Assembly (NCBI GenBank): GCA_947034895.1
Contig: OX344762.1
Coordinates: forward strand, 51,873,087 to 51,937,086
DNA: 64,000 nt
Direction: 5' to 3'
DNA from: Rhytidiadelphus loreus
Taxonomy: Eukaryota; Streptophyta; Bryopsida; Hypnales; Hylocomiaceae
Made by a program: the position numbers and the translations under genes. The notes below the pieces were generated by a model. It worked only from the letters and a program-made list of their open reading frames with translations, had not been told where the DNA came from and ran no database searches. Below are positions 11,463 through 56,088 of the stretch, piece after piece. Position 1 is the first letter of the stretch; every line of letters starts with the position of its first letter.

Positions 11463-13300
11463 TTTTTAAATCACAAGAGGTTCAAAGCTCCGCTGTTGGA
11501 TAAGCCTTTAACACACAATTTAGGACTGAACTGGACAAGGAAAGGTAGGGTCTTCTAAGTTACTCAAAAATGGACCACCCTACTCTTTTCTTGATAAGAC
11601 GTATGGACTAGACTCAATATGGCATGAGAGCCTTGGGTTAGTAACAAGAATGGGAATAACCCGTGGTTAGTAGCAAAAAAGTTAGTACAACAAGGAAAGT
11701 ATGGAACTAGAGGTCCTCTAGAGTGGCATCGCCAAGGTACGGTGGAGGAATGCTCTAGGGTTAGAACAAGACACCAAAAGAAGACTACCAACGTTACTTG
11801 ACCAGTAATACGGACACAACAACACGGGGTCACAAGAACTTAAGTTACCAAACACAAGGACTAAAAGACATCAAACGCAAGGACTAAAAGACAGAAGGCA
11901 CAAGGACTTCAAGGAATAAGAAGGACCTCCACGGACCTTCAAAACTGTAAATAGAACAACAATTGGAGTCAAAAGTGCTCCAAAAACACCATAGGGAGTT
12001 TTGGCCAAAATGCCAAAACAACAAAGATAGCTTGGATCCACGGACCCACAGTAAGTATTGAAAGTGTTTTGGGAGGGAGAAGGGCCCCCTTTTATAAGAT
12101 TCCAAGGGCCCACTCCCCCATCAACTTACTACCAGTAACCTCATCCTTCCGGATTTTCATCCTTATCTTTTGAGATTTTCACCTAATTTTGGTTATTACC
12201 CTGGTCCTAACATCTATCTTTTGAAGTTTAACTTCGAATTGCAAACGAATTACGCCAATGGCTTCGAAAGGTCATTTTTAGCCTATTAGACATCCTACTT
12301 CCTATTTCTATCGCGAAAAACCCATCAGAAACTAGCGCCAACTGAAACCAATAAAAAGGTTAAAATCTAACTTTTGGAATTTACCTTTTTTGGCCTGGAT
12401 AACTAGCTAGGGTTGTTGGGGAGGCTCTAGGGAGTAAGAAAAGACTCCTTGATGTCTTCATTCCGACTTTGTGCGCTCCCGGGACGACAATCAACTCCAT
12501 GAATATCCTGCTGTAATTAATAATTGGGGGAATGTTGATGATTCGGCTGCCTCCCGCTATTGGAACACCATAAAACTTGTCAGGGTGCGTTATTAACATA
12601 AAAAATGCTAATATTATTTTTAGTGAGGTTTTACCGCAGCCTGGGTAATTTATATGAATTTCCCATAGCGGCTTTTCGCAGTTGACCGCTCGGAAAAAGA
12701 TCCTCTAGAGATAAAAAAAAACTGAGACTTTTTGGGGAACCTCTCATGGAATCCCCCCAAGCCGCGTGCCAAGTCTTGGGCTAATCTGGCACACAATGAG
12801 TGGCAAGGTGAAAACTGACTTCTCTTGAATTACTGGCAGTCAAGGAATCTTTTATACATGAGGGAATCTTGGCGAATGGATTTCGCTGTGGGTACTCTGA
12901 CATGTTCTAGATCCAAGAGCACTATCCGGCGGCTGTGGATTCTTCCATGTGGCCTGTCTTGGAAAAGTGACACCTGCAAGCTAATAATTGGGATTCGTAA
13001 TATTTCGTCGATAGAATGGGGAAAGTAGAACCTATCTTTGGAGATTTATGTGGGGATCTCCTTAACTCTCCTGACACTAATTTAGCCTATCATGGTCACA
13101 TGCACTAGATTTGGGCTATTTCGGGTAAGTTCCATGTAACCCTATTGTTTCCCACTACTTACGGGTTCTAAGTTTCTAACCTATATGCAAGTGAGGTTTG
13201 TAGGTATTCTATGGGTAAAAGGCTATTTATGACCAAATGCCAACGATGCTAGCATGCGAGCTTAGAGCAGCGAGCTTGAAACTTGTGAGCCTAGAGCCCA
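11463..13300. other. Unassigned, less AT-rich segment, possible retroelement or gene relic
   Basis: Base composition is more balanced than in the flanks. Minus-strand frames at 11,564-11,833, 11,884-12,105 and 12,381-12,599 are longer than most local noise, but I recognise no domain. No long terminal repeat pair or primer-binding site was seen. The part at about 13,230-13,300 resembles the reverse complement of 29,990-30,045 (shared CTAGCA...GCGAGC and CCAAATGC). Confidence 0.35.
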
Positions 13301-14346
13301 AAACTATAGTTTTTTCTTTTTTCTTTCCAAAATTTTGTATTTAAAAAAAAAACTTGGAAAAAAAAAATTCTAATTATAGTAAATTTTGTGACTTATGACC
13401 ACTATCCCTATGACCGTGGATTTTGTTTAATTTTTTTTCTTCGTGTATCAATTGTCATTTGCAATAGTAAAAGATCTTCAAACTTCAATACATAATTTCA
13501 ACACTTACTTCACCCACTACAATTTCACTAGTTATGCAATTAGAAAATTCTAATACAACACCATATAATGACTTTAGCTAACAATACTCATAAAAAGAAA
13601 GGTAATTACTACTATGTCTCCACTATAAATTCTCTTAACCAACTCTTGTCATTATGGTCAATGTAGAGACTAAACCCACCAGTATAATTTGAACCCAAGC
13701 CATCATATTGTATATAATGAACCTCTTACACATATACTCCAACCTAATGGAGTGACCACTCCTAGGAAAACTAGAACTATAAAATGCGGAAGATATACTC
13801 TAAAGAAAATGGAAAAAATTAATTTTTTTTTCAATAGAAAAAAATGGGAAAAAAATGGGAAACTAACTTTTTGAAAAAGGGAATAAATTGGTTGCGGTCT
13901 CGGAAGCTATTTGAAACTAGTGTTTCAACTTTTGTTGGCCTTGAAATCTCATTCACAATGCTTGATTCAACATTCGAGGTGGGGCCAAAAGAGTCATTTC
14001 TAATTTTTTTTTTCTATTAAAAGTTCCCAAAATGGGTTGTAGGACCGCAACCAATTTTGCATTTTCAAATGAAAATGAAAATACAATTTTGCACAATTTC
14101 TTTTTTAGTTAAATTACCAATTATTATTGCAGAATCTTAGGTTCATTGCATTCATATAGTATTAATTGAAAATTTAGGCTCCACAGATACATATGTGTAT
14201 ATAACTATATATAGTGAATGCAAACATATTTTCCATGCCACATGGTTGAAGTCATTCCACTTGTAACAATTGCATAACAATATGCTACAAATGAAGTACC
14301 TACAAATCCACTTGAGGTTCTATTCTAAAATTGAAATGATCCCAGC
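13301..14346. other. AT-rich intergenic DNA, no gene seen
   Basis: Only short A/T-run frames. It may contain the 3' flank of the transposase relic to its right, but no terminal repeat was identified. Confidence 0.45.
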
Positions 14347-17300
14347 TCAAACAAAAAGAAGCTTCAACTCATTGAAGCTATAATTTGGAGCATGAATGAA
14401 CTTGTTTTTATGGATATCCATCTTGCAAAAGTATTTGTACAAGTAGTACAAGTGCTTGCAATTTACGTATTGTTGACGACCTCCAATTGCAGAGACGGCC
14501 ATATTCAGGAAATTCGGACAAGTGCATGTTGGAAACATACCTACTGTAATTTGGTACACATTTCGATTTTGCTCTGGGCTAGTCTCTAGAGATACGATTG
14601 CACCTAATCCCGGAAAGGGAAGCAAGGTCAATCCTATAATTTGTCCTTTGATGCTGCATGCACTCTTCCACTTGTTTCGTTGTTCTGTTGTTAGTGCATT
14701 CGCAATTCGGCAGATGGTTTTGTTATTCCTCACTGTTGGGTATGCATTCGGGTTCATGGGTGGAGGGTGGTCATAAAGAAGACTCTGAAATGTCTTTGAC
14801 ATGTGGAAGAGACGATGTGGAGACAATGTAGGGCAATCTTGCAAACAAAAGCCTGCATGCTGCAATAATAAAGTCTCTTCTTGACTCATATTAGTTTCTG
14901 TCAAGATAGGCCACATCTCAGGTACCTCAGACCAATCAATCACCCATTTCCGCTTTGTTCCTTTCACACATCGTTCAATATCATCCTAGCAAAACCAAAA
15001 GTCCGCTACCACCTCCTGATGACTTCCATAATCTTCTTTCCTCCCATGATAGGTTGGAGCGGCAGTTTCCTTTGAACCCTTTGCAATTTTGGCGGTGCAC
15101 TTTATATTTGAACCCCTTTGTTGAGCTTGACATTTGGCACTTGATTTGTGGCTAATTTTGGCAATATGCCACTTTGACGTGTCATAATCACTTTCATAAG
15201 TTGTTGTTACATGAGTGGCAATATTTGCCTCCATATGTATTCGTCCATCTTTAGAAGACGTTGCACTAGCCATAGTAGACCTTGTTCAAACACGAGGTTG
15301 AGAGAAGTTTACTTTATCTGGGCGATGTGAGTCTCCTTCGGCACCAATTGGTACGTCCAACTTCCTTTTTGTGCTTCCAAAGATTTCTTCCCCTTCCAAA
15401 TGTGGTATGCAAGTTCCAACACCTTCAATTCGAGGTAATGTGTTAGAGCCTCTGCCATTTTCTTAGGGTCTCTATTTCGTTTTGCAGCTCTCAACTTCAA
15501 CTCCCCCTTTGATGGACCTGATCTAGAAGCATGGCCTTTTAAATATGTTCTATAGTTTGTCATTTGCATAAATGCGCGGATACTATCATCACAAGTAGCG
15601 TCGAACAAATTGTTTCCTCGATTTCCAAACATTTGAAGCCACTTATTGTGGATGGTCTCAGACTAATTGCAAGAAGGCATGTTCGCCATCTCCTCCAAAG
15701 TCAAGTCCTAAAAAAAAAAACATAAGTACAATTTACTTTAAAGATTTTCATTTCTTATATGAAAGCTACAATATTCTTTGAGTACATGATTTGCTACAAA
15801 AGACTACTTCAATCCAATAAAGCACTTTATTTTATAGATACCTTACCTTTAAGAACTTATTGGAGGACAACATACTTAATTTATGGAATGTTAGGAATTT
15901 CTCTTATTGAATAATTTTGTTTTATAATTAGAGAAAGAAATTGACGTTTCTGATTTTTCAATGAATACACAAACATTCAACAATAATTAAATTCATATAT
16001 AGTCCTCTAAACTATTATTTCCTCAAAAATTCACAATCAAATTAACCTATGGTAAAAAAAATATACAATACTCTTTGACCTAATTGACAATTCTATAATG
16101 GCTACATGGGTGAAAGGAAAATTCACGTTCTCATACCATTTGCATAAAGCCTCTCCATTGCCTATAACGGAAATGCCAAAATGCTAGCCAATGGTCCAAG
16201 TGATGGAGTGCATCTTCAGTTGCAGCACTGGATGAAAACCACCATGACCGAATTGCAAGGTAACGCATCTCTGCCTCGTCCATAGTTTTTGAATCCTTGT
16301 ATTGTTTACACAATCTAGTGTGTTGATGTTGTAGATCTGCCTTGATGTACTTCTGCGTATGTTTCTGAAGAGAAGTATTCCAATGTAGCAAGCAGGTCCT
16401 TTCTCAATTCTCCATTTTGTCTTCCGTAGATCTAGTGCCGTAAACAATTCGAACAACCTTCCAATTGGCCATAGCACTATTTGCCATGGACCCTTTGAAA
16501 TTTGGATGATGTATTCCATAGCGAGACATAACAGTGTTCAAGCACCTCCAAAATTGTATTTGGATCTCTGTATCTTTTGACTGCATATTGCATGTTGAAA
16601 TAGTCATGACCTTCTTGTAATTTGGATCATATACGTGACACGCCGTGGTCGTCCAATCCTTCACACGCTTCACGGGGTAAAACATCATCCACGTGTTTGC
16701 TAGATCTCCACCAGATTGCATGCGTTTCACCAAGTCCACTCCATTGCTAGATCTTTCAGTGAGCATCTTGAACAAGTAGACCTTCTCCTTGCCTTGGCCA
16801 GGGAAGACGCTGTTATGAATGTATTCAAATCTTGAGTCTTTCTTCATAGTCATGATGTTGTCAATGATACCTCCTCGGTTGTTTGAGCGAAAGGATGATA
16901 TCACGTTCCGTATATTGGGACTACTCAAATATTGAAAGCGGTCCATGACATCTTCTAATTCATTATCCCGCAACATCTCTTTCTCTCCTTCTCCATTGTG
17001 AAATAGGTAGTTTTTCAAGAACTCCTTACTTGCGGAAAGTGCAATTGCCAAATTTGTGGCCAATGGTGTTTTTGCCACCACTTCCCCAATGAGGCTACAA
17101 ATTTCTTCACTAGAATCTCTATACATACCTTTGGCAACTCGGTGTACATGATCTCCAAAATGAATAATAGCCCTTGTCATCTTGGAATTATCACTGTAGG
17201 AGTAGTATATCCTAGCATCACAAATTTTCAAGCATATAGGAGGATTCTTGCAAACCTTGCAAACTAGAGTTGAATCTTTGGGAGGACTTTTCCCAACTGC

Positions 17301-18341
17301 AAATGGAAAGGTAGTACAACCAGTCCACTTTGTTTTGTTTTGTTTAGAAGCCCTCTTCAAAAAATCACATTCGGGATTTGCACAAGCAAGATGACCAACG
17401 AAGTATGACTTACGGAACTTCAAATGGTTGGAGTTGTAAATGTTCGTCTTTACTAACTTGCACCACGGGTGTCCATCGTATTGCTTGTCCATTCCTTCCA
17501 AGTTTTGAGCTGCCAGTATAGAAGCAGATGAGCGATATGGAGGCAATTCAAAAATGACATCTTTGTTGAATACCGGTGGAAGAAATTGTACACAATGGTG
17601 CTTCATAGCATCTAAATCCGTAGTAGACAACTCGTTCCGAGAACGGTGCATGCTTATTAGTCTCTTCAAGCAATCCATTATGCTAAATCGATCAACTATA
17701 GTTGGGTGCAATGGAGGACAAGAGAATAGAGATTGTGTAAGGTTATTAGACAGAGTGCCCGCTGCAGAACTATCAAGTGTTTTCTGGGTCGATACAATTT
17801 GAATAGATGATGGTTGCTTTTGAAGTATCAAGTGTAGGGACTCCCCCTCCAATTCACTAAACAACTCAATGATAGGATCTAAAGGCTCTATCTTGACTGT
17901 TTGGAGCAATGCATTCTTTGGAAGTATAGGAGAAACTTCTCTTGGTGGACCAGGTGAAATTGTTTGAGCCAAGTAAAGCATATCCACTATAGATGTTTCT
18001 GAGTGACGACTAAGTATTCCTATCGACACATCTAGCAAAGATAAGGGAAGATCATATGCTCTAAAGTTTCCGGCAAGAAGATACCAACAATGCCCTTTAT
18101 CTTCCACAGACTTCACAATTGGCATAGATTGTTGCAATGCACCAGATTCTGATTTCTTCTCTTCCTCGACGTAGATAGAGGACTCTATAAATCTGAAGTG
18201 TACATGAAGGAGGTGACTGCAAACTCTAGCTTGTGCACCATCATCAACTGAAAAAACGAGAGGAATTTCATGACCATCTACTCGAATGCATGCCATGACT
18301 ACAACATTGACCAAGTTCTCTCTAAAACAAAAGGTAGCCAA
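14347..18341 (-). pseudogene. Mulator-like transposase relic with Cys/His module and SWIM zinc finger
   Basis: Read on the minus strand, a long exon (18,341 to about 16,129) encodes an N-terminal region, then a Cys/His cluster (CANPEC, about 30 residues, CKVCKNPPIC, then IHFGDHVH) that looks like the WRKY-GCM1 zinc-binding fold of Mutator-like proteins. A transposase-core-like stretch follows (CHVYDPNYKKVMT, FRYRQW near the end). After an intron (about 15,712-16,128) the protein continues with DLTLEEMANMPSC, and further downstream has a SWIM-type finger, CTCPNF...CKH, around 14,480-14,560. The MACIRVDGHEI start at 18,296 is an alternative to 18,341. In-frame stops include TGA 16,404-16,406 and TAG 15,663-15,665. 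Two positions where I would expect Asp read Asn (TCNMQS, MANSA). It is probably dead. No terminal repeats were found. Confidence 0.7.
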
Positions 18342-20704
18342 TGATTGTAAAGAAAGATGAAGAATTGATTGTTGTAATGGAGTTTAGTATTGTAGGTTTC
18401 TGAAACAGGAATTACGGAATACTTGAGCATGATGTAAGTGAGTAATTAAGCATGTAATCTCAATTGGCAGAATGGTTGTCATACTACCATCCAGTTAGTT
18501 ATGAAGTGCCAAATTTTAAAAGTCATTTAATGAAATAGGCGACTGTATCAAGAACTTGCAATTTTAGCACTATTGAAATATTTGTCACCTAAGATCCTTC
18601 ATCAATAGTCCATAGATCCACTGAGTCAGACTACGGCTTGTGGATGGTAGTTGGAGGTTACATTATGGATTTGCAAATGGTGCTCTTAAAGTTTTGGCAA
18701 CGTCGTTAAGGGTTGTCAGTCTTAAAGGTTTGCTATTTTGAAATGGAAGACTCTATGAAACTCTATTGAATGAAAAGGATTGGCAAAGCTTACTTGTGAG
18801 AGTATATAAGGACTTATGTATTTCAGTGTCAAGTCTTTCAAATGCATTCTATGTGGTGAAGTACTAAGAAGTTAGAGTATAGGTATGCATATTTTGTTTT
18901 GGTACTTCATGCACATAGAGATCCAAAGTGGTTTCTGTATTATTGCAAAGGGTACAAAAAGTAGGAGAAAGCGTAGGTCACTTCTATTCTCTTCTTTCAA
19001 GGCACTTAGGAGATCCAAGATGAAAGGGAAGAAAGCCATATCAAAGACAAGTCAAGGTACATCTGGAGCCATCCGCGTGCTTGGTTATGGAGAAGGAGGC
19101 TGCGGCATGGAGGTAGAGATAGTAGGGACAAACTTGGAGGTTTTGGTAGAAATGTCACAGGAGACCATTACTGCACAACAGGAGCCGATTGGAGAGGACA
19201 TGGAAAATGTATGCATCTATACAAACACCTTCTATGTCTTTCAAATTCCTTGCATTCATATGTTTTTTGAAAAAAACATTGTAGTACGCTTTACAAGATT
19301 TGTTGTTGTCAAAAAATTCATCTTTAGAATATGAACCTTTTTGTGCTCCTACTATAAACTTGTTTCCATTAGCTATTTGATGTTAAAATATAGCCTAATC
19401 CATTATATGTTTGAATATACATTATTTGTTCATAGGTACAAATAAATAGAATAGTTAAGATATTAACTACTCTCAGTCTATATAATGTATACATGTCAAT
19501 TAAATTTAATCTTGTGCTCATAGTTTTAGATGTTGATATAGTATAATAGGTATATGAAATTTGTATTCTAGTGTTCTATTATAGTGAAACAATGAAAGAA
19601 AATAATATGTTGTATGAAAAGAAAATAATATGTTGTATGAAAATATATCTATAATGCACAATATGTTGAAATTGGATTTCCCCTTATTAATTTCTCTGCA
19701 ATTGATGCAATTTATAAATTGATTAATGATTATAATTTTACTAGATAACCAGAATGCACTATTTTTGAATTCATTATTTTTGTAATTAGATCTCAATAAT
19801 CTTCTTGAAATGGATATTTTGTGAATATGGCTTTTGAAATATGTCATTTTTTCATTCATTTTCTAACTACATACAGAAAAATGAAGCCATCCATTTATAC
19901 TTTTCTTGCTAATTTCCTACAGCTATTTAGCCTTCATTTTCTATAATTTAGTAAAGAACGTAAAATATTTTTTTGACTAACAACATATGTACAAAAGAAA
20001 TAATTTAGATGCTATTGGCTTTGAAATATAAAAATATCACATATATATATAAATCACTGTCATTGGTAATAAAAAATTTACAAAAATTATGAAAATAAAG
20101 TTTGAAAGAAGAATCCAAAATACCTAATTAAAAGATAAAATCTCCAATATGATTTTCTATTAAAGCCTTTTGAAAAAAATTACCTACATCATGTTTCTCC
20201 ACCTTTAAAGAATATTGAGACCAAAAAATGTCCAATGGATGACTTGACTATTCATTATAGATACAAAGAATGCACCTATTGGTCTAATAACTGAAGCATT
20301 TTTCATGAAGAGCCGTATCCTTCAATGATTAAACCAAAAAACTATTGATGAATAATAACACATTCCAACTAATTTTCAAATATTATGTATTGAAATTAAA
20401 TTAAGATAGACTACTAGAACTAACAATCAAGCCATAAATAATGTAACAATGCAAACAATCTTATATAATTATATATCAAATTTGAATGTTAGAATTACTT
20501 GCCAACTAACGGTTAGTAATCCTTGCTGTCATTTTAATTCAATGGTTGAGATATCTAATAAGATAAGATTGGATTTGAAAATTTTGGGCGAAAATGCTAT
20601 GAAGAGATTGGTTGCCGAAATTTTGGTGAAGATGTATTGTACATCGCGCGCTGAGCTTGAAATTTTGCCCTCCTTGCAAGATAATAGAGGCTTTTGGCTT
20701 CTAG
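18342..20704. other. AT-rich intergenic DNA, no intact gene
   Basis: A plus-strand frame at 18,885-19,334 contains a basic stretch (MKGKKAISKTSQGTSG) ending at a possible donor GTATGC, but I recognise no family and do not call it a gene. The stretch at about 20,218-20,287 is related to 54,486-54,556 (shared GACCAAAAAAT, ACAAAGAATGCACC, TTGGTC), another dispersed repeat. Confidence 0.45.
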
Positions 20705-21046
20705 CACTACAACAACGATAGTGTTTTATGACTGCAAATATATGACTGAGGATGACTGGCGACTACTTGCAATCATATTTTTGGAGGTCAATACCTTGGG
20801 GAGAAATATGACTGCCAGTCGTTTTTGGGTCTTGTACTTCACGCGCGTATATTATACGTCCGTTGAAAACACCAAAGTATTTCATAGGGAATGGTAGGGA
20901 ACTCGTTTGAGAACATTGAGTTATATTATTGGTCATATTTTCATGGTACTAACATTTTTTTGGTTTTTGGGCAACCTAAAAAAAACATGGGCAATCAAAA
21001 AAAATATAGACAAGCCATTGTTTAAAATTTTGAAACTTAATCACTA

Positions 21047-21175
21047 TTTTTTAAGGGTTTTGAAACCCTAGCCGTCATTTTTTTAGGGTTTTGAAATCCT
21101 AGCCACCACTTTTTAGGGTTTTGAAACCCTAGCCGTCATTTTTTTAGGGTTTTGAAATCCTAGCCACTACTTCTT
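21047..21175. repeat. Four tandem units with AGGGTTT/AAACCCT palindromes
   Basis: Inside CACTA-1, the motif AGGGTTTTGAAACCCTAGCC (with an AATCCT variant) occurs four times, about 32 bp apart. Each has 7-bp arms AGGGTTT and AAACCCT. AAACCCTA is the plant telo-box, so these could bind telobox proteins, but that is only an inference. Confidence 0.75.
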
Positions 21176-21224
21176 TTGACTCTTCTTCCTTATCTTTTGT
21201 TGTCTCTTGTCTCTTGCCTCTTTG

Positions 21225-21365
21225 AGTTCACTCTTGTTTCTTAGTTGTTGTGTTTTGTTGCATCTTGAATTCACTCTTGCTTCTTAATTGTTGTCTTTTG
21301 TTGCATCTTGAGTTACTCTTACTTCTTAGAGTTGTTGTCTTTTGTTGCATCTTCACTCTTGCTTC
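21225..21365. repeat. About 43-bp tandem repeats in pyrimidine-rich part of CACTA-1
   Basis: Three units of the form CTCTTGCTTCTTA, GTTGTTGT, TTTTGTTGCATCTTGA repeat in tandem, followed by a longer CTT/TTG-rich tract to about 21,600. The open frames here come from this composition and are not genes. Confidence 0.7.
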
Positions 21366-22197
21366 TTGTTTTTTGCTTCTTGTTTTTTTCTTCTTGCATC
21401 TTAATTCTTTCTTCTTCTTCTTTCTTCTTTCTTACTTTTTGTTCTCTCTTTTTGTTTCTTATTTTTTTTTGTTGCATCTTAAGTCTTTTTTGTTGTTTCT
21501 TGTTACCTCTTAGTAGTTGCTCCTTATTGTTTCTTGTGCATCTTAACTTGTATTTGTTGTTATCTTTTAGCACTTTTTGCCTTTTTTCTTCTTGTTCCTT
21601 GCATCACCATTATTTTTCTTCTTACCCTAAATTTGTATTACATATTTTCTATTGTTGTAAACTTTTGAAAATTGAGCTTTGTTGTATGTTCATTAAAAAT
21701 TAACCTCCTATTTCTTTAATTGTATACATAGGCAACAAAATTGGAACAAAGTCGTTGAAAGCTACTTGCAACTCACTTCATATTATTGTAAGAAATGTAG
21801 TCTCTATTGACTTGTATAAATAATTCATTGTGATATACATATTTTGTATTTGTGACTAATAAATTATAAATGTCATTGAAAGGAGTCATATTCCTTCTTA
21901 TATATTCCCTCTTCAATATAATTGTTTCTTGTATATCTTTAAAATCATATGTATTTGTTTTTAACTACATGAAATCTTTTATTCAATTGTTAAAGTATTT
22001 TAATGTATGATTGCAAATATGCTTAGGTATCCTACAACCATTGTATAATTTGTTCAATTCATAGTTCAAAATACATATCAATAAAAAAATGACTACTTGG
22101 AGTCACAAAATGATTATAATAATTTCCAAAAAATGACTAGGTGTTCTCAATATGACTGAAAAATATAACTGAGAAGAGTCGTTTTACAAATCATCAA

Positions 22198-22516
22198 AAA
22201 ATATGACTCACCTCAGTCATATTTCACATGACTGCAAAATATGACTTACCACAGTCATATTTCACATGATTGCAAAATATGACTCTCCGCAGTCATATTC
22301 CACATGACTGCAAAATATGACTCACCGCAATCATATTTCACGTCATCAAAAAATATGACTCAACGCAGTCATATTCCACAAAATATGACTGACCACAATA
22401 ATATTCCACGTCATCAAAAAATATGACTCAACGCAGTCATATCCCACAAAATATGACTGACCAATCATATTCCACGTCATTAAAAAATATGACTCAGCGC
22501 AGTCATATTCCACGTA
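22198..22516. repeat. 38-bp subterminal tandem repeats of CACTA-1
   Basis: About nine units of roughly 38 bp (some shortened to 30) follow the pattern ATATGACTCACCGCAGTCAT then ATTTCACATGACTGCAAA. Each unit holds the inverted pair ATGACT/AGTCAT, the same hexamer found next to both termini. This is the classic subterminal array of CACTA elements. Confidence 0.85.
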
Positions 22517-23170
22517 GGATTTTTTCATTTACCCGGGCAGCTCAATAAAAAATTAAAGAAAGTCAAAATATACGCCTTGTTGGCATACTATGGCTAATTA
22601 TGGATATTTATACCCTTCAACTTATATGACTGCCAATATGACTGATGTCTGAAGCAACTGCTTCTAAACGACTGCTGCAGTCATATTCCGAGTCATCTAC
22701 AGTGATTTCTGCGCCAGTCACATTTTTTTAGTTTACGACTGACTACAATCGTTTTTTGCAGTCATAAAACACTGTTTTTGTTGTAGTGTAGTTTTTGTAG
22801 ACAGCTCTTGTCCATAGATTCTTGCTACCGATGTCTTTGTGCCATTGCAAGACCTTTGTGAATTGGTCTCTTATTCATGGATCTTCAAGCGGGATCTTGT
22901 TGTGATATTGCATTTGTAAATGAAGATCACGTTGGTTAGTTGTTTGTGATTCATATTCCCATTCTTACTACTAGCTCTTCATTGAAAACACGCATGAGTT
23001 TGTTGATTGCCAAAAACTGATATTCAATTTCTTGAGTTGTGTAGGAAACCATGGATCAACGGTGGTTGACGAGGAGTGCTGCAAAAAAGAGGAATGACAT
23101 TGAGGGATCTCGGACAAACAAGCGGTTGCCAAAGAATTCAAAGAAGTCGATTGTTGATGAGGTAAGTTTT

Positions 23171-23518
23171 GGTGACGCAACTCCTTGCAGTGACGCAACT
23201 CCTTGCGGTAACGCACCTACTTGAGCCTTGTGATGACGCAACTACATGCGGTAACGCACCTGCTTGTGCCTTGTGGTGACACAATTGCTTGCGTCTTGTA
23301 GTGATGCACCTACTTTTGCCTTGCGGTGATGCACCTACTTGTGCCTTGCAATAACGCACTTGCTTGTGTCTTGTGGTGACGCACCTACTTTTGCCTTATG
23401 GTGACGCACTTGCTTGTGCCTTGCAGTGACACAAGTGCTTACACCTTGCAATGACACAACTCCTTGCACCTTGCAATGATGCAATTGCTTGGGCCTTACG
23501 GTGACGCAATTCCTTGTG
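23171..23518. repeat. 25-bp minisatellite in intron 1 of the ParB-like gene
   Basis: About fifteen imperfect copies of a 25-bp unit, roughly TTGCGGTGACGCACCTACTT then GTGCC, start nine bases after the exon 1 donor. The first copies are shortened to 18 bp. The core TTGCGGTGACGCAA is an inverted repeat (TTGCG/CGCAA). More isolated units appear at 23,570-23,600 and further along the intron. Confidence 0.88.
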
Positions 23519-24236
23519 TGCATTGACAGATGACATTTCTTTTTTAATTTGATTTCATAGACCAACTGCTTGTGGTGACGCAAATACTGCTTGTGGTCAT
23601 AACTTTCAATTCAAATTAGAATGACGGTGTTTGGGAGTTCATGACTTTTTTATCTTTGAGGTCCATTAAGCATCTAGAGTGTGCCGAGGCCCTTCAATAT
23701 AGCTAATTATTATTTTCTATTCATTTCAGATTTTTGTTTGAGAACGTTTTTTGAATACTTGCGTTACCACAAGTAGCATGTTGGAAATTCTAATATTTTC
23801 TTAAACCTCATCACATGATCATAAAATCTTGATTTTGTTGTCTCAATGAAACACTATGTTGTTGACTTTGCCTTTTCAACAAGATGTGAAGGTTAGAAAT
23901 TCCTCCTTGTTAGACCTGCTTGACTAATTGAAATAATTTTTCAATAAGATGATGCATAAACTTTCCCATGGCATCTCTATATGTGCACTTTAGTACCCTT
24001 GTAAGTTGTGACCACTAACTATGATGACAACAAAGGTCACCAAAATGAATCTATGTTAAAGCCATATTTACCTACTAGTCCATTATTTGGAGAATTTTGG
24101 TGACTACTTTGGTAATGGAAGGCCGTGTCCTTTTAGGGTTAAAAATTAACATAAATTTTTGGAATCATCACCCTTAACCAAGTGCATAAATTCAAATTTC
24201 TTGTTTTTTTATTAATATCAAGCATCTTCCTTCGGC

Positions 24237-24252
24237 GTTGCGATATCGCAAC
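24237..24252. repeat. Perfect 16-bp palindrome GTTGCGATATCGCAAC
   Basis: This perfect palindrome lies in intron 1 of the ParB-like gene. It shares the TTGCG/CGCAA arms of the minisatellite core. A similar site, ATTGCGTGACCGCAAT, lies at about 24,352-24,367, and an opposite-strand form, CTTGCGTTACCACAAG, at about 23,759. Confidence 0.7.
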
Positions 24253-27200
24253 TAGTATATACTATATAGGCAAAATTAAGAACATTGCGAAGCTTTTGTT
24301 TTTTGTTTTTCTGATTCATTCCTTGTTTTGAAGGACTACAACATTTAGAGATTGCGTGACCGCAATGGATTTTGGAACAAAAAATCCTAAGTATTTGTTT
24401 GGAGTATGTTGTTGAAAGTAGTCTTCACCAAAGTATTTTCTCTTTGAATTTATTTTAATTCATCATCAAAGAGAGTGCTTGTGGTAATGCAATGGGATCA
24501 GGACGGATGTACTATTTTTATTTTGAACAAAATGGTTGTCCTCTATAATCTTCATTCATTTGATTATTAATTCATATGAACTTGAAGTTCATATGATGTT
24601 CATATTTATATCATTGTATATAATAGAACACTAGCCACTAAGTTTGCAACTAGTGATTGTAAAGGTTCAAATTGTTGAAGCCATTTGGTGAAGTATAGCA
24701 TTCCATCAAAGAAGGAGATCAATTTATTATAGATTTTAGCATTGATTGTAGTCCTTAGAAATGGTTGAAGATCTAAAATGGTTAATAAAATGGTTCATAA
24801 ATTTAAAAGCATGGGCCTTGCGGTGCCACAATGTGGTCTTTGTACATCTTTTACATTATTACCATTCCATAGTCATTGTTTTAAGTGATTACTTTAATTT
24901 ATAAACTGTTTTGGATTCAAATCATGAACACTTTAGATATTCCAACATTTCATCAAAATGTATTATCCAATGATGTTTATTTCTGGGATTGAATGATGGG
25001 GTCTGAATTGGTTAAAGATCTTAGTATACTTATTGACATTAACATTATTCTTATGGCATTAATGTTTGTATCTCAGATTCCATCATTTGGACCAACTCAT
25101 GTAGAAGAGCATGAAATTGACAATAAGACCTTGGTGAGAGCACGTACTACATTACTTCAATCAATTTGAATAACCTTAGAGGATGATCTAATATTACATT
25201 TCATGCTTCCAAGCCTTCCATGCTTTACCCATTTGAATATTTTAACTGAATTTTCAATGTCTAGCATGAGTTCAGGAATCAGGATCCTAGTACACCTATA
25301 TTGACATAGGGGATTCAATCAGAAGCATCAACACCCAACTTAGAGGAGGATAAGCAACCCGAGATTGGTCACACTAATAGTGATGATGAAGAGGAAAATG
25401 AGGATGGTGAAGAAGCAATGGATCAGGAGGTTGATGTTGAAGATGATCTTTGGAGGAAGCAAAAAGTGGACTCCATCACGACCATCAATAGCATGCGATT
25501 GAAGCCTTTACTACTTTCTCGAATTTGTATTCTGCTCTGCCTCTTAACTCCAATGCCTATGGTGAGGCCTACTTTGACCTGTGATCTCATTAAGCTCGAG
25601 CAAGAATTCATCCATGGTTATCGCGATGGGGCTTGTGTCTTTTATGTTTCAACTACAAATGAGAGAGGGGATATGCAATTGATGACACCGGAAGACCATG
25701 CATCCCTAAGTCCATTGTGGAAAGAAGAGGTGGTGAAGTTTGAAGCATTTCTAGACTATACACCACAGCTTAGGCGTCTTAAGAACTTGAAGTTCTTTAT
25801 TTGTGATGGTAATCACCGTCACATTGCTTGGATGTCTCACATCACGAGACTCCACAACAAAGATCCATCTTGGCATATCAAGGTGGATTGCATTTTACTT
25901 GAGACAAAAGGCCATACGGGTGCGGTTATGCAAGCAATGCATGATATCAATAAGTAAGTGTGTATATACAACATTTTCATTTTCATATAATTTTGCATTT
26001 ATAAATGCATTGTATTATTGTTCAATATCTTCAATAATATTTATTTGTTTTGTATTGTTTTACAGGCACATTGAAGACTCTCATGTCAAAACAAAACTCG
26101 TTCACATTTTGTATCAGATCCAAAAGTATGGAGTGATGCCATTAAAAGAATTCAAGGAACTTCTTAGTGATTCCGAATATGTAAAGTGCCAACAAAATTC
26201 AAAGAAGACATGGTATTCAATGCCATTGGAGGTTTTCACTTCGTTTATCTTTCGGGTATGTCTTGGAAAGTATTCTTCAATTTTTTTAATTTTCAGATGA
26301 GGCTTTTTAAATGTTTTTATTTCTTTTGTATCTTCAATTGTGTTGTGGTGCATTTTTGTAGCATGAGATTACTGCTGCAACAGATGCGGCCGTGAGAGTA
26401 TACCACAAATGTACCCCAGACGGAGAGGTGGATGAAGCTGGAGCAGTGATGGTTATGCGGAAGGGGGCAAGGGATAAGACCTCCAATTTGTATTACAAGC
26501 TTGCAAAAATGGTGGCGGTGGCAAATCTAACTTCTAGTCCACACTGGCTTGAAGAGGTAAGGGTCCAAATCAAATTTGAGGAATTTTTTATGCCAAACCA
26601 AGTTTATATTCATTGTCTATGCTTGAAATTCTAAATTCTAAATAAATTCATATTTTTTGTATTGCAGATTGAGAGGCATTGGACTTTAAATGTTGAGCCA
26701 GAGTTGACTCTTGATATTTGATAAACTTCAGCTTATCTCAAATTCTAGTGCAAAAGCTATTTACAAAGTAAGGTGGTTGAAATGGTGGAATTTGTCCACC
26801 CATTCTCGTGAAGCAAAGAAGTTTCCTCCAAAGCCAATGAACGACGACAAGCTCACTGCCTTTCTTCACAAGGCAATGTGGTAGACAGGAATGAGTTTAG
26901 AACTTACTCCAACATCCTCCATGCTTTGTCTTTGACATTCAATGTTCATTTCATTTGAATTTATTTATTTTTTGGTAATTTTGTATTTTTTTGCAGATTG
27001 AAGAGGCCATGGTTGAGGCTGTAGACATGATAATCTGTAGGGACAATTTGACAGTAGACATGCAAAGTCCTCTTGAGCCTGAAACGGCAACAAATTATGT
27101 TAAAGGATGGCGCATGAAGATTTGGGATCAGGCATTCCACAGTGATCTAACTCGCAAAGGTCATTTCAAGAAAGGAGACAATTTCAGAAAATTCAGTGGT

Positions 27201-29525
27201 AATGACAACATGATAAAACGCGTTGTTTTTAGGTACAATTAATTATCATTTACTATCTTTGAATATATTGCCAAAATTAAATCTTTCATTTTATATGACC
27301 GTGATCTCTAATATTGATCTTCACTTCCTTCATTAGGTACTTCAAGTTAGAGTTATACAACAAGAAGGCCATCTCCAAACATGAGTTGCCTCCATTCTTG
27401 AACACATGGATTGATCGAGGGTCTTCTGAGTGCATATTCTCATTGAACCAATTGAAGACCTGGACAACCACACATCTAAACGGTTGTGGATGGTATCTAG
27501 AGTGTGAGCCCACGTTTACACCACCTACAGAGGTTGTACTGCAACAAAGTCTTCAAACAATGGGGGCTACTGATGTTGTGTTAGAGGAGTACGCAAACTT
27601 GGAGGAATCTGCAAAGCAGAAGGCCATTTTGAAGCGTCAAAAAGAAGATCAAAAGAAAGAGGAAAAACTTGTGAAGGACACATAAAAAGCCAATTGCAAG
27701 GGAGACGGAGAAGAAATTGAAGGCGGCTACAAAGGCTGCAAAGAAAGAGGCTCAGAAGTTAAAGGGAAAGAAGGCACTTGTTTCAAAGGTTCTTGCATCA
27801 TCAGTGGATAACACCTTGGTAGTATAAGGTCTACCAACCATGGCTAAGATTCCACCTCCCTGTATACGTTGTTGATTGAAGAGGTCCTCACTCGTGGACC
27901 TTTGCCAAAGACTAAGGAGGCTACGCTTGTTGTTTCTATAGTGGAGTTGATTATAAATACGAATGTCGAGGTAGTTCTTGGCAGCATGAGCGGTTCAACT
28001 CCAACAGAATACACACGCATCTTGGACTTCTCTCGACATGTACTTCTAACAAAATTCAAATGAAGTAACACAATGTATGAGAATGAATGGTCATCTTTGT
28101 AGATTGTCATGGTAATTGTAATTAATTGATATTTACATTGTTTTGTAGAACGCATCAAAGCGAGGGAGGGCTTACCGTGGAGTGGTTGATAAGCACCCCG
28201 GCTTCGACCTCATTTTGGTGGACATGCCCAAGGGTCTTCCAGTTCCTGGTGTGAGTGAGCCAAAATCGAGCATTCCACAATGGAATGCTCTACCAGACTC
28301 GTAATTGCAACCACTTTTTGAGTTTGTTGATAATCATCTCCATGATGATGGCGCCTTCATTGTCATTCACCCTCAAAGTACAAAGGCAAAGACAACAATT
28401 CTTCAACATTGCAATGCATACTCTTTCAAGAAGAAGAAAGACTGGTGGGGCATGAATCGACTATATTTGACAAACCCCTTAGACATGGGAAAACCAATAA
28501 GAAACTTTATTTTCTCCATAATTCCTTGTTGAACTTACAAGTCTTGATATTTCCTTAAGAACTTGTAATATTAACTCTAAATTCCTAATGCAAACTCTAC
28601 AATTTGGAATTATTCTACTAGTTAGGGACCTTGTTGAGATTCCAGCTTCAAAATTTGACTTCCAGCAAATCCCCGACCTCAAATTTTGTGGCGTTGATGT
28701 CAATCAAGATGACATTTTGCAAAACATTACGTCTACTGAAGACTTGGCCATGAATGGCAACAGTCCATGGCGTGGTCCTCGAGAGAAGAGCCATTTGTTA
28801 ATGAATATGTTGATTGAGTCATGCACGTTGCAAGGAGATGTTTTTTATTCTACTGCAAGCACGGGTTCTCTTTACTTTTATCTTCTATGAATTCTTAAGT
28901 TTTAGCATATTTTCATGTGTAGCTATAATGTACATGATGTCAACTTTGTCTAAATTGAAATAATTTGTTTTGATGCAAGTGCCTCTATCCATGCATGTTG
29001 ATCTTCTGGTCGCCACATCGTTGATCTTGAGGAAGATGAGGGCATCTTTAAGGCCATATTGGCACCACTGATACGTCCTTCATCATCTGTTGCGGTTACT
29101 ACAATACCAGTGGTCCAAGACTTGGGTGATTTCGACGAAGAGCTTTGTGTTGTAGAACCCATCAAGAAGAAATCACAATTTAGTACGTAAGTCAACCTTA
29201 GACTTTTCATTTGATTAAGTTATAAATTTATAAATTTATATTGCAATTTGACTAAATTTTTTTGTCTTTGTCCTTTAGATCTGTGAGGTGAAACTCCCAG
29301 TTGCACTTGCCATTTTTTGGTAGACCCGAATTCTTTCCAAGTCCAAAGAAGTCTTTTGCCTTGCTAGTTTATGCTGAGGACTTGGCTCAAGCATTCAAAG
29401 TTCATGGCAGCACACATAATTTGTCCCATCATCAAAGAGCAGACCCTCGTATTTTGGATTATGTTGATGTGAAGGCAATTTCTTTAGATGGAGAGTCAGT
29501 AACGGACTCTTCTGCTAGTTCTTAA

Positions 29526-30257
29526 TTTGGAGGTGTTTAGTTTGATTTGGATTGGATTTGTAGTCTCCAAATTGGATTTATGTTCTTCATGACAATATAT
29601 TAGTGATTTGCATTGCTATAGATTAGATTGGATTTTCTATATTACACTATTATTTTTTTAATTCTTGAACGTAACTAATTCTTCTTTTATTTTCTTAGTT
29701 CTTGTATTGTATCTCATGATTTTATTCTACTCAAATTCATATATTTTCTTACAAAGACATTACTTATAAGTAAAATCATTACTTTTTTCCAATCCTTTAG
29801 TTTCAAATTATACAAAAATCTTTGCCCTCAACCTCAGTCTAATATCCATAGTCATAGGTAATAGACAAAAAATGCAAGGCTCATCAGTTCATGGGCTCAT
29901 GGGCTCTGTCTCACATACTAGCAACCTTGACCCACGGCCATAGGTCCTCACCTATTTTTTAACCAAAAAAAGTTCTTGCTCACACCCTCACGCTTACAGG
30001 CTCGCACACTAGCAACCCTGGACCAAATGCTATAATAGTACGTGACATACCTATTTTGGTTCTATACTCTTTGTGGGCTTTTTGTATAATATCATGCCTT
30101 AATTTGCAACAAACTAAAAAAAGAAAACCTATGAATCCCAAGTGACGAATTCGGAGCTCACAGACCCACATGGATTAATATTTTTGAATTTCTTGCCATA
30201 TAGTGTAAAAATCAATTTAGCAACTTCTCTAATTAGAAATTCAATAACAAACTTTGA
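29526..30257. other. Intergenic DNA, no gene seen
   Basis: Contains two CACA(T)ACTAGCAACC motifs near 29,913 and 30,006, the second inside the stretch related to 13,230-13,300. No coding sequence recognised. Confidence 0.4.
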
Positions 30258-30937
30258 TCCCTAGAATCCTAGATGCCCAAGGCCTGTTTTAAGCTTTTTA
30301 GTATTTGCTCTAAATTGAACAAAATGACAACATTTTGATTAAGTGACTAGGTGTATTAATTTAAAAAAAATTGTAAACGTATAAATTCAAACTAGACATG
30401 TTACAAATCTCATAGGAAACCAAAACACAACAATATCACTTATGGAGTAAAAGATTATAATGTTTGAACATGAGGGTGTTAAAACTACAAAAATGATGTG
30501 GTCTTCCAATCTTCTTTTTACAAGTCAAATTTAAAAAGTTGGTGACCAAAAAAATATGAGGTTAAAGGGCCTAACATGTATAATCCCAATCAATTTATGG
30601 CTTCTTAAAATATATTCTATAATTTTTTTTAAATTTTAAATGAATTTTGAATGTGATTTTTTCTCCAAGATCTAGTGTTTTTGAGGCACATTTTGAAGAG
30701 CTCTCAATGCTACAAGAAGTCAAGATTGCAATGAGTACCCTTGCACAAAGTCTTGAATAGAAAAATCACTATCATTTATTTTTAAGAACAAACTATTGAT
30801 GCTATAACTAGACTTTAAGAAGAACTTTCTAAAAATAGCAACTTGGATACTACTAAAAATAGCAACTTGGTTAGGTTTTATTTAACTTGGTCAAAGTTTT
30901 GCCAACACCAGAATTGGGTGCCTCGGGCATTTAGGGG
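30258..30937 (-). mobile_element. Family Y TTAA-type element, inverted copy of 56,089-56,718
   Basis: In reverse complement it begins CCCCTAAATGCCCGAGGCAC, then GGTGTTGGCA and CCAAGTTGCTATTTTTAGTAG, matching the start of the copy at 56,089. Its other end, ATTTGCTCTAAATTGAACAAA, matches the complement of that copy's end. TTAA flanks the plus-side right end (30,938-30,941); the left flank is TTGA, probably a decayed TTAA. No coding capacity. Confidence 0.75.
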
Positions 30938-30956
30938 TTAAGTGCAAAAAAACCAA

Positions 30957-34451: not shown

Positions 34452-35874
34452 ATGACGGACTCTCCTTCCGCGCCTAAGAACATTGGTTTTGCCAGCGCGG
34501 CCGCTGCCACACACAAAAGTATTCTGGCTGACAGAAGGAAGCGGAAGCTTGAAAGATTGCAACATGAGGCGAAGGTGGCCAAATGAAAGGCACAAGCGTC
34601 AAAGCAAGCCCTGGAATTGGAGGCGCGCAAGAGAGCAAAAACTGCCCGAACAATGCGCAGTTATTTCACGTCCTCAAGGAATTCCCAAAATCAAGGTCCC
34701 CTAGAAAGCAACGCAATGGAGTTCCTTAGCTCTGAAGCAGGAAACAAGTATTCTCAGTCCCCGAGTACCGAAATTTTTCTATCGTGCCCCGACATCGTCC
34801 ATGTCTTTGACAATGAAGACAACAGCTTGGGTGATGAAGATGATCCAGACTTGAGCGCAAATGAAATGGTCAACTCCGACGACGAAGCTTTCATGGACCC
34901 ACCAACCCATGGCCGTAACAAGCGAAAGAGTGGTCATCTGGCGCTGAAAGGTGCAAAAGATGTAGGTCCCTCTTCCAGCACGATGAAGCAATTGAAGAAA
35001 AACTGTGAACGATCCCGCAAGTTCCATAGTGAGTGGGCAACAAAGGAGCCCTGGAGCAAGGTTGTGTTGGCTGAAGACGGCGTCATGCAATCTGTGCTTT
35101 GCAAGCCATGTTCTCTTGTTTGTGGCAAATCGATTCAAATGGCTCCTAAGTGGAACACTATCTCGAAGCATGGGCAACGTGATATTCACAAGAAATGCAT
35201 GATTTTGTTTGCTGCTTAGGGGCCTCTATTTGTAACAGAGCAAATTCAAGGTTGTACCATGGCAAAATCACGGAGGAAACGTGTGCAATTCTCTACTTTG
35301 TTCCAATTGCTTGCGAGAGGTAGACCAAGGATTGAATTTGAGGCCTGCTTTGAATTATATGATTTCCTTGGCGTTCCAGAGTTCCCTCGCAAGCATTGGG
35401 ATGACGGATCCAATTGGATAATGGCCGAACACCTCTATGACTTTGTGAAACAAAAAATAAAACATTTGGTATCTATTGCACCTTTCTTTGCTTTGCACTA
35501 GTAGAAAACAGGGTCAAATGTGACCAGTGAAGAAATGACTGGTGACTAAAAAGCTACTGAAAAATGATTCCCAGTCATTGAAATGGCGCCAAAGCTGACG
35601 TATCAAGGGCCACAATCATTTAGAAGTCACTTCCTACATTACTGGATGGACTTCTAGATGAAATCGACGACCAAAATTGGTATCATCTGTAGTTAAGTCT
35701 GTGTTCTATGGCCTTGTTGCTAATGTAGTTTTTGTTGAGTCATATTTGAGTTGTGCTGTCATAAAATGAACCCAATATATGACTACGGTAGAACAGAGGA
35801 AATCAATGACTATTAACCCCTCACCACCGAAGGGGACGAAAAGTGTTCTCACATAGTCTAGCAGTCCAATTCAA

Positions 35875-36345
35875 AGTGTTGTAACTTTTGCATCCAATGT
35901 CTGAATTCAATAAAACTTGTTGGGAAAGTTGCGCATACTAGTCTAGTCTGTGTGGTAAAATTTTCAGATCAATTTTCATACCAAGATGTACAGACTTTTT
36001 GGAAGCCAATCGAAGTTCACAGGTTCAATTTGCATTTTGATGGCTGCAACTTCAAGGGCTTGTATCTTCTTCATCCAATGTCCGTTTTCAATCAAATTTG
36101 TTGGATTATGTTCTAATTAAAGTCTAGTTATTGTGTTAAGACTTTCATGTCAATCCAAGTTGTTTTGAATGTTTGGGAGCAATTCAAAGTTCAAAATCCA
36201 GACATTTTTGGAATATAGTGAATTTCAACGGCTTATTTCTTCTTCATACAGTGTCCGATTCCAATAATTGTTTTTGAAAAAGTTGCGCATACTAGTCTTT
36301 TCTGTGTGGTTAAAATTTCATATCAATCCAAAAAGTTATGATTGA
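35875..36345. repeat. Three diverged tandem units of about 170-180 bp in CACTA-2
   Basis: Units begin near 35,880, 36,059 and 36,230. Each holds CATCCAATGTC or a variant and AATCAA/AATAA, followed by a TCTAGT...GTGTGGTTAAAATTT-like segment. Units 1 and 3 share GTTGCGCATACTAGTCT. They are old internal duplications. Confidence 0.7.
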
Positions 36346-37464
36346 CTAAGAAGCATTTTAGTAGAGGAAGGTTCAGGCATAGATGTGTTTTCTGCAACTT
36401 TTTTTTTTTCTTATTTGACATTTCAAAACAATTTTGCAGATACAAAGAGTCAATTGAATGATATTCTCTTTCACCAATGTTTTTTTTTGGGGGGTTTGAG
36501 TCACTTTCTAGTTTAAAGTTTTTTCATTTGAGTAGATTTAGAAGTTAAAATTCACTTCCAAATGTGTTTCTAGGAAAATTTCAGCATCTTTTTTCAACAC
36601 TAAAACATTATAATCTTGCAATCTATACAATCAAATAACTTCAAATTTGGTTGACATCATCTTCAACACGCACACTACAAGATTGTACGGTTGAGATTTT
36701 TGTACCTCAATGACATTTAGACTTATAACACTTGTAAAGCAAGGAAGCTTTTAGACATGTTTGGGCTTTGGCAATGAGGGGTTAATGGGACACCGTAGAA
36801 ATTGAACTTAAATTTATTGTTTGCTTCTCTATAAAGGTCTAGTTGCATTGTAGTCATTTTTAAGTCACAAACTATAAGTGCACTCCAAATAGATGGACAG
36901 CTTGGATGGATGGATTAGAGAGAAAATTCAGATGGTCAAATCAGATTGCTTTTTTTTTGAGCGATTTAGATGGATGGGTGAAAATTGCATTTTGGGGACA
37001 AATTAATGGACAGGTCAGATTGTATTTGGACAATAAATAGACCACTCAAATTGTATCTCTACAACTAGTGGATGACAGGTCAGTCGCCTTTCTACTTCTA
37101 TGGTGGCTGACATGTAGTATGTTGTAATTGCATCTCATTTTTTAGTCATTGATTAGTAATTGATTAGAGCAGTTGTAGAGTAGTCATTGATTGGTCATTG
37201 ATTAGGCATTGTTCAGGCATTGTTTAGGCATTATTTAGTTTAATAATACATTGTGACGTGGCATCTGTAGATTGCAATTGCAGTTGCTAAAGATGAACGA
37301 TGGAGATTTCATCTCTCTCATTTATGGTTAGGGTTAGGTTAGCCATTGCCTACTTAAGTGCATCTTCTTCTTCTTCATCCTCCTTGTTGATGAACACCTT
37401 CTCATTTTCTCTTCTTGTTTTTACTCCAATTTTCCTAAGTAAGTCTTTAGTTTACAATCTTCTT

Positions 37465-37700
37465 TTTGTTGTATTGTTTTGTTGTTGTTTTGATGCTTTG
37501 TTGTTGTATTGTTGTGTTGTTTTGTAGTTTTTTTGTTTTTTTGTATTGTTTTTTTGTTTTTTTGTGTTATTGTTTTGTATTGTTGTTGTTCTTATGTTGT
37601 GTTGAACATAGTTCTTGTGTAAGTTGAGTTGTTGTTTTGCAATTTTGTTACTTTGTTGTTTTGTTGTTTTGTTGTTTTGTGTTATTGTTTTGTTGCTTTG
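37465..37700. repeat. T/G-rich simple tract (TTGTTTTGT) in CACTA-2
   Basis: Long irregular TTGTT/TTTTGT repeats on the plus strand. The open frames on both strands here (poly-Gln/Asn/Lys or Cys/Leu/Val) are artefacts of this composition. CACTA-1 has a comparable tract in its interior. Confidence 0.75.
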
Positions 37701-39935
37701 CTGTTGTGCTGATTTGTTCATTTGCTATTTGGGTATTTTGCTTATTTGTGGTTCAATTTGTGGTTTTGTTGTTGGATGTTTTCAGTTGGTAGTGGGCTGC
37801 AATTTTCAATGGACCAAAAATGTCATTTGAAACAATGACTACCACATCATCACCAATGACTATCATATGACTCATATATAACTGATGCAACTCAAAAATG
37901 ACTCAACTCAAAAATGACTCAACTCAATTCAAAAATGACTAAAATTTGACAGTTTCAGCCAAAACCATTACTACAAAATGACTAACATGATCTGAAATCG
38001 TCCATGTTAATTAAATGGGTCACTGGTTATACAGTTATAGACAACAGTCATTGATGGCCCCTTTTCTACTAGTGTTGTCTGTTGATGAGACAACTGCCTG
38101 CGACAGTACTTCGTGGATTGCAATCCACGCTTATGTTCTTATAAATTGGTGTCGTGTTCCTCTTCTCCTCACGATCGAGAAAATGGACGGTGATAGTGCC
38201 ACGACAAACAAGCTGACTACTGTAATCATGTCTGCCGTGATTGTTGGAGTAGGGCTCACAAATACAAACATCGCAGAGAAATTGTTGTGCTTCGAAGCCG
38301 ATGGGGTGAGCACCTTCCAAGGCTTAAAGTAGGGAGTAACTACGCAAATGAAGGAGAAGTTTGCTCTGTTTGCCACTGGAGTTCACTGTTGTGCTCACCA
38401 CCTCAATTTGGCAGCCGAGTCCTTGTCTTCAATGACAGTTATGCATGCAGTGGAAGAAGTCCTCTACACGACTCACACTTACTTTGCGCATTCACCCAAA
38501 AGGTAGCAAAGTTCAAAGCCTTATTGCAGCAACTTGAGTTGAAAGTTGGGTAATGATGCACAAAGATAAAAACAACAGGAAGTGGGGGCACAAGGCTAAG
38601 ATTAGTGTCCCTATCTTATTGTATTCCCTTGTCTGTAGTCTGTACTTGAATGATCTCAGTCTTGAACTATTACCGATTGACTATACGTGAATGATCTCCA
38701 TCTTCAGTTGTTATCTATTGTTTGGCTCCAATTGTGTACGTTGCCCCTTAGCATCTTTGCTTCATTGATTTCTCGTCTATATATGCATGTGCAGGCAAAC
38801 CTAGCCCTCCTCCTCGATCCCTACGTTTTGCTGGGTATGCTAGCAATGCTGCCAATGCTTGAGGCTATAGATACTTTGATTCAATGGGCTCAAAAAAGAG
38901 ACACCTACATTTGTGATTTTGTCGAGGCTCTAAGCACCTGCCAAACCAGTTTATTCACATTCTACTTGAATGCTGAAATGGCCTTCCGCAAAGATGAGTT
39001 TCATGCTTACAACCAGGTCCTGCAATGCTCTCATGAGCAGATCTTGATGAAGTGGGACGCCAATTTGAACTTGCCCTACGAGACTCTGACATTTGTGGTG
39101 GGTGGGAAATCCTTGTATGCAATGCATGACGGTGCAATGGTCAACCGTGAGGGATATGCGGCCATAGTCAGTAGTGTCCAAAAAGATTGCAAAGGCAAGT
39201 TTTCATTTCAGGTTTTCATTTCAGGTCTTCTCTAAATCCAAAAATGACCCAATTTCTAGCTTATCATGTGTCATTGTGGACTGATTTTCTGAATACAAGC
39301 CATTGTAGGGAGGTACTCTTCAGAATGCTATTGTGACCCTAAATTGCTTAAGCGACCTCTATTGTCTGTAACTCCAGCATTTTGTTTGTCATGTGCAGAG
39401 GCCGCAGGGAAACTCATGGATGAGATGAGCAGCAAGTTTCCGGATCATTGCTTGATGGATGCCTTAGGCGTCGTATACCCGCAGTATTGGCTCCGCAAGC
39501 TTCAGAAAGCACTTGGATGTCATCAAGAGCTTCTATGGAGAGCCGAATTGGATTGGTGAAGGTGACAATAAACAATTTGTCCCAGCTAACCTTGACAAAT
39601 TCTTGTTGGAGTCAGAACAACCTCTTTTCAAGATTGCTATGCTATCAAATGCCCACAATGCTATGCAGATGCCTCAAGTACATGCTCCTGCACACCAAAT
39701 GGTGAATCCACTAACTAAATTGTGGAGGATTTTGGACGCAAACACCTCTCTTGGCCACAAATTCGGGGAGTATATAAAATTGGCCCAGATTGCAATGGTT
39801 CATGTTTTGGGCAGCGTGGAAGATGAGCGCATGTTCTCAGCACTGTCTTTTTTGAAGGACAAGCTACGAAATCCGCTAGATCAACACTTGGGCGTTGTTG
39901 TGGGCACGCATTGCCAGTCTGTATATAGTCTGTAG

Positions 39936-50234: not shown

Positions 50235-53603
<3,369 letters not shown>

Positions 53604-56084: not shown

Positions 56085-56088
56085 TTAA

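Follow-up and report, generated by a model that had tools for sequence, protein, structure and literature searches.

In a 64,000-nucleotide stretch of moss DNA (C2:51873087-51937086 of a 407-Mb assembly in 489 contigs; hereafter the window), a spliced gene at 23051-29525 joins a ParB-like module to a part resembling DNA amino-methyltransferases. Here, I propose, with a probability of about 0.9, that this ParB-methyltransferase gene is the second, accessory gene of a giant two-gene DNA transposon, which is probably of Mutator-like type. Both modules lie in one shared mobile unit, which is flanked by duplications at its ends and occurs in high copy number, and the accessory exons are under purifying selection.

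Results

The gene is enclosed in a larger unit, 13241-30020, that was invisible to the initial annotation. The nearest copy, 93% identical at the ParB exon (copy A, C4:7163500-7188499), aligns end to end with 13241-30022 of the window with both genes inside, at 93.8% identity over 7529 nucleotides (nt) and 94.4% over 5805 nt; the intron-1 stretch between these two blocks aligns in pieces at 80-90%. The ends of the element read CAACGATGCTAGC.. and, on the opposite strand, CAGGGTTGCTAG.., each followed by GAGC-rich repeats, and form terminal inverted repeats that are 84% identical over 38 nt in copy A; the match is poorer in the window and in copy B, a member of a distant subfamily. Direct duplications of 9-10 base pairs (bp) flank four of the five copies examined, namely the window (Table 1), copy A (AATCTTATAG against GATCTTATAG, alike at 9 of 10 positions with one mismatch), copy B (TTTACAAGAA at both flanks) and a copy at C4:74305578 (TAGAGGACT). 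A duplication length of 8 bp was ruled out by copy B, in which the duplication extends to 10.

The unit is abundant. A genome search with the ParB exon returned 1373 first-look candidates, of which the best 150 were scored, all with E<1e-60; by hand count, an internal stop is listed for about 30 of these places and none for about 120. The left 460 bases gave 110 candidates, and 25 of the 40 places scored (hand count, window included) start at query base 1. Twelve left-end loci were fetched, the four whose match starts past base 1 being left out of inspection, and a similar left terminus is present in all eight inspected, window and copy A included. By comparison of coordinates, nine left-end places besides the window and copy A have a listed ParB exon about 11-14 kb downstream, oriented the same way. 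At C5:33476090-33476567 (L066), a left terminus 91% like that of the window stands on a contig for which the 150 listed places include no similarly identical ParB exon; this locus is perhaps a truncated or gene-less derivative.

The partner gene in the unit is a broken, transposase-like one. In the window, copy A and copy B, the ParB-methyltransferase gene lies inside the termini on the strand opposite to it; relatives of the transposase-like gene are 90-96% identical by exon in copy A and 62-78% in copy B. Nine further copies were fetched with 4 kb upstream, and in seven of them a transposase relative runs on the opposite strand from the ParB gene.

Mutator-like elements (MULEs) make target-site duplications of about 9-11 bp and encode a C-terminal SWIM-like finger; the duplications of hAT and Sola elements have other lengths. 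The duplication length in four of five copies and the presence of terminal inverted repeats agree with a MULE, and, judged from sequence, the 9-10 bp duplications and the SWIM-like finger suggest that the partner gene is a Mutator-like transposase. That the transposon instead belongs to another superfamily with 9-10 bp duplications, for instance a Sola- or hAT-related one, is unlikely: such a reading would accommodate the want of a Pfam match to any named transposase, and the brown-algal case described in PMC12477816 is a Sola1 element, but both the duplication length and the finger, weak as it is, are as expected of Mutator-like elements.

The accessory gene bears the mark of protein-level constraint. 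Ratios of non-synonymous to synonymous divergence (dN/dS) were estimated for the ParB exon between stop-free copies (25 of 30 fetched), 270 of 300 pairs being computable and the pairs not independent of each other. The median is 0.088 at a synonymous divergence (dS) of 0.05-0.2 (20 pairs), 0.136 at 0.2-0.5 (29 pairs), 0.079 at 0.5-1 (25 pairs) and 0.063 above 1 (193 pairs). The methyltransferase-like exons behave alike, with a median of 0.12 for exon 9 (10 of 11 rows, 27 of 45 pairs; closest pair 0.28) and of 0.157 for exon 10 (10 of 11 rows, 22 of 45 pairs; 0.47 in one pair involving copy A). The accessory gene thus appears, even in its altered methyltransferase part, to have been maintained as a protein during the spread of the element.

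In the window, the gene comprises about twelve plus-strand exons, mostly with GT..AG borders, and would read through to a protein of about 1,140 residues. All the peptides that the initial annotation had quoted from it are in their place and on the right strand. Its description of the copy as broken is borne out as far as the window goes, where stops or frame breaks fall near 25307, 26720, 27683, 27825 and 28302 (some perhaps being splice sites that were not recognised); stop-free copies of single exons are present elsewhere in the genome. The same annotation had read one spliced gene as joining a ParB fold to a module derived from N4/N6-methyltransferases, a join that the sequence comparisons below support, and had offered a transposon-borne gene as one of two origins, which is the one favoured by the larger mobile unit.

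In a search with the ParB-like exon, 500 candidates were scored, of which 477 are relatives at E<=10 and at least 120, among the matches listed, have E<=1.2e-52. The 3' end of the exon (..HDINK, then an intron) is common to many relatives, and one of them, P0008, continues through this intron into the following exon. The DGNHR exon fits the ParB-CTPase/sulfiredoxin fold, and a DGxHR/GxxR-type motif stands at the start of a helix; in 30 aligned sequences, DGNH is invariant and the following R is kept in at least 90%. The exon with FDLILVDMPKG has four relatives at 47-76% identity (six candidates). Since relatives were found for both exons, the ParB and methyltransferase parts are conserved coding sequence and not chance. 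Other searches were less telling: with the whole read-through protein as query, 0 of 7990 scored candidates passed, probably as an effect of low-complexity words crowding the list; Pfam scans, whether of single exons or of neighbouring frames, gave no informative family for the genes of the transposon; and among solved structures, a sequence search had no match below E 0.5.

Thirteen sequences of the methyltransferase-like module (METHYLTRANSFERASE, exons 9-11), drawn from the window, copy A, eight other copies in the genome and, for exon 9, three database relatives, were aligned and compared with a profile built from 10 annotated phage methyltransferases, 200 column shuffles serving as null. 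The module scores 45.6 (single-comparison E 3.7e-6; shuffle maximum 24.6), exon 9 alone 32.5 (shuffles <=22.5) and exons 10-11 34.1 (shuffles <=21.1). As the whole module and both halves beat all 200 shuffles, the homology is real. In an earlier comparison with window exons 10-11 and the exon-9 relatives only, exon 9 exceeded all 300 shuffles and the second half did not; the latter became significant once the other genome copies were added. In the profile alignment, D-M-P-K/E falls on DPPY and DCTTATGT on DPFAGSGT, so that the homology to N4/N6 amino-methyltransferases runs over the module in the motif order IV..I.

None of the 15 sequences examined, 4 of them database relatives and 11 from genome copies, has the catalytic (D/N/S)PP(Y/F/W), whose position is taken by DMPKG, DMPEG, DMPED, DMPEE, DQPEG, DIPMG, DCHEN or DCQEN. 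Pfam N6_N4_Mtase gave no match at E<=10 to the broken module of the window or to four exon-9 relatives. Of the amino-methyltransferase first proposed for this gene, the homology in motif order holds; activity as an enzyme is not supported, the catalytic motif being missing from all 15 sequences.

The coordinates of the transposon and its parts are collected in Table 1. The CACTA-like element inside it has TATGACT-rich subterminal repeats and interrupts the larger transposon, into which it was inserted later, for it is missing from copy A. The ParB-methyltransferase gene as cargo of this insert was ruled out, since the insert reaches only to 22788 and copy A lacks it.

Table 1. Coordinates of the transposon, its two genes and associated features in the window
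Feature	Position	Strand	Remarks
Transposon	13241..30020	.	16,780 bp, about 14.7 kb without the CACTA-like insert; ends sharp against copy A; left terminus repeated across the genome
Left target-site duplication, GACCAAATGC	13231..13240	.	identical 10 bases just past the right end
Left terminus, starting CAACGATGCTAGCATGCGAGC, GAGC-rich subterminal repeats	13241..13300	+	inverted match to the right end; recurs at other left-end loci
Transposase-like gene, broken, several exons	14353..18383	-	main exon 16410-18383; last exon 14353-14985 with CxC..CxH SWIM-like finger
Non-autonomous CACTA-like element, TAG/TAG duplication	20705..22788	.	CACTACAACAA.. ends on both sides; absent from copy A
Exon 1, basic N-terminus	23051..23161	+	followed by a GT donor; 86% in copy A
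Tandem array of 18-25 bp units (TGACGCACCTGCTTGTGCCT-like), intron 1	23172..23518	+	
ParB/sulfiredoxin-fold exon with DGNHR	25310..25954	+	longest open exon
Middle exons 4-7 (exon 6 broken)	26067..27232	+	conserved in copy A; exons 4, 6 and 7 in copy B; present in most further copies
Exon 8, lysine-rich, broken	27336..28060	+	
Methyltransferase-like exon 9	28149..28520	+	DMPKG replacing DPPY at the motif IV position, then DDGAFIVIHP
Methyltransferase-like exons 10-11	28630..29188	+	EKS..LI..GDV, TASTG (motif I position), GRHIVDLEEDE
Last exon	29292..29525	+	
Right target-site duplication, GACCAAATGC	30021..30030	.	matches 13231..13240

Other features lie elsewhere in the window. An inverted pair of dispersed repeats, 78% identical, lies at 30288-30941, adjoining the right side of the transposon, and at 56085-56695. 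Plus-strand open frames at 34587-39932 resemble, on my own reading, a broken hAT-type transposase with a BED-like start (no informative Pfam match). An enolase exon at 53250-53600 (Pfam Enolase_C, E 1.1e-55) marks an ordinary host gene, and an exon at 61263-61601 is lysine-methyltransferase-like (Methyltransf_16, E 9e-4, just under the cut-off).

Discussion

Several observations weigh against the proposal of a selected accessory gene in a two-gene Mutator-like transposon. No duplication flanks the copy at C3:60084740, one of the five examined. Two of the nine further copies have no transposase relative in the 4 kb fetched upstream, and one of the nine (L046) has no methyltransferase exon in the 4 kb fetched downstream. 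As for the partner, the Pfam SWIM match to the CxC..CxH finger is weak (E 0.4), and among the Pfam matches to the minus-strand gene there is neither a named transposase family nor a MULE model. In the three ParB-exon pairs at dS<0.05, where changes are very few, the median dN/dS is 0.499; moreover, low dN/dS is a sign of constraint on the spreading lineages and not evidence of what the protein does. A structural model of exon 9 alone had a low confidence (predicted local distance difference test, pLDDT, 54) and was not used; its fold search was led by Smr-like and other unrelated proteins, and the few Rossmann methyltransferases further down, at E>1, belong to other classes.

As to function, the accessory protein would consist of a module of ParB-CTPase fold, a middle part and a fold of N4/N6-methyltransferase type whose catalytic motif is degenerate. 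It may bind the DNA of its own element, with the repeat-rich ends or the tandem array of intron 1 (23172-23518) as candidate binding sites. The ParB fold might work there as a nucleotide-gated clamp, and the methyltransferase fold might serve as a scaffold binding S-adenosylmethionine or DNA instead of as an amino-methylating enzyme. Such a protein could help the element to escape silencing or to assemble for transposition. I give an anti-silencing or transposition clamp that does not amino-methylate a little less than an even chance, and what is left beyond active self-methylation falls to other roles.

A more specific version is tentative and, taken as a whole, somewhat unlikely: that a Mutator-like transposon of land plants has turned a phage-type ParB-methyltransferase of prokaryotic origin into a non-methylating DNA clamp, gated by nucleotide and S-adenosylmethionine, which recognises the element's own repeats and protects it from silencing, a self-recognition system that has been kept under selection in hundreds of copies.

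The obvious competitor is an active self-methylating enzyme, whose ParB part would bind the transposon and whose methyltransferase part would add N6-methyladenine or N4-methylcytosine to it. The motif order is kept, the region of motif I is recognisable (VVLDCTTATG), the E of GRHIVALEED is retained and the methyltransferase exons are under purifying selection; self-methylation has also been proposed for algal transposons (PMC12477816). Nonetheless, with (D/N/S)PP(Y/F/W) missing from every sequence compared, I deem it quite unlikely.

Far less credible still is a host gene, acquired by an old bacterial transfer and since supplied with introns, that transposons captured repeatedly: the spliced structure and an intron position common to the copies would suit it, but within this genome the best 150 of 1373 candidates all scored as copies, the termini are shared and an opposite-strand transposase relative accompanies the gene in copy A, copy B and most of the further copies.

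In the preferred reading, that of an accessory gene of a Mutator-like element, the closest functional parallels might be mudrB and VANC, helper genes that serve plant Mutator-like elements. By analogy, the moss gene would likewise be the second gene of an autonomous element and serve the element itself; neither mudrB nor VANC is known to have a ParB or methyltransferase fold.

A close parallel in composition is algal. The Ectocarpus transposon Sola1-1_Ec32 encodes, as described in PMC12477816, an accessory protein of 1104 residues with ParB and N4/N6-methyltransferase domains on the strand opposite to the transposase, and similar cases in green and red algae are cited there. Judged by that description of the algal protein, the two systems share a similar protein length, ParB-like and N4/N6-methyltransferase-like domains, a giant DNA transposon and an opposite-strand transposase. 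They differ in that the partner is here of SWIM type and Mutator-like in appearance, with 9-10 bp duplications, that the host is presumably a land plant, to judge also by the plant-type termini of the CACTA-like element and by five large contigs of 51-94 Mb, and that the catalytic motif of the methyltransferase is degenerate.

Among prokaryotic systems, a fold survey of 2025 describes phage fusions of ParB to N6_N4 methyltransferases, with the ParB-fold module upstream as it is here, and mainly sulfiredoxin in eukaryotes (PMC12704722); its main text contains no word beginning with 'plant'. The WO phage protein ADW80149.1 is a single open frame of 404 residues that keeps DPPY, whereas the moss gene is split into many exons, has a long middle part and lacks DPPY. 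DndB and DGQHR proteins also have a DGxHR-type motif followed by an IN segment, and along that stretch there are weak profile matches to them: P0006 stays far below the cut-offs for DGQHR (TIGR03187, 14.8 against 58.85 bits) and DndB (TIGR03233, 13.8 against 328), and a better DGQHR member match has E 0.0045, no bit score being given. Searches that reach close relatives only gave no confirmed relative in viral and GTDB contigs, none in phages, and two sub-threshold matches in plasmids (E 2 and 10). In the open-licence literature, no land-plant or Mutator-like case was recognised from the abstract openings among the matches listed.

Conclusions

ParB is best known as the clamp of bacterial chromosome partition; here, it is met in a plant transposon of very large size, in a gene that is under selection and present in many copies. 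The finding widens a class so far described in algae, taking in a different type of transposon and probably land plants, and it makes testable whether the ParB-methyltransferase proteins of transposons mark DNA or clamp it.

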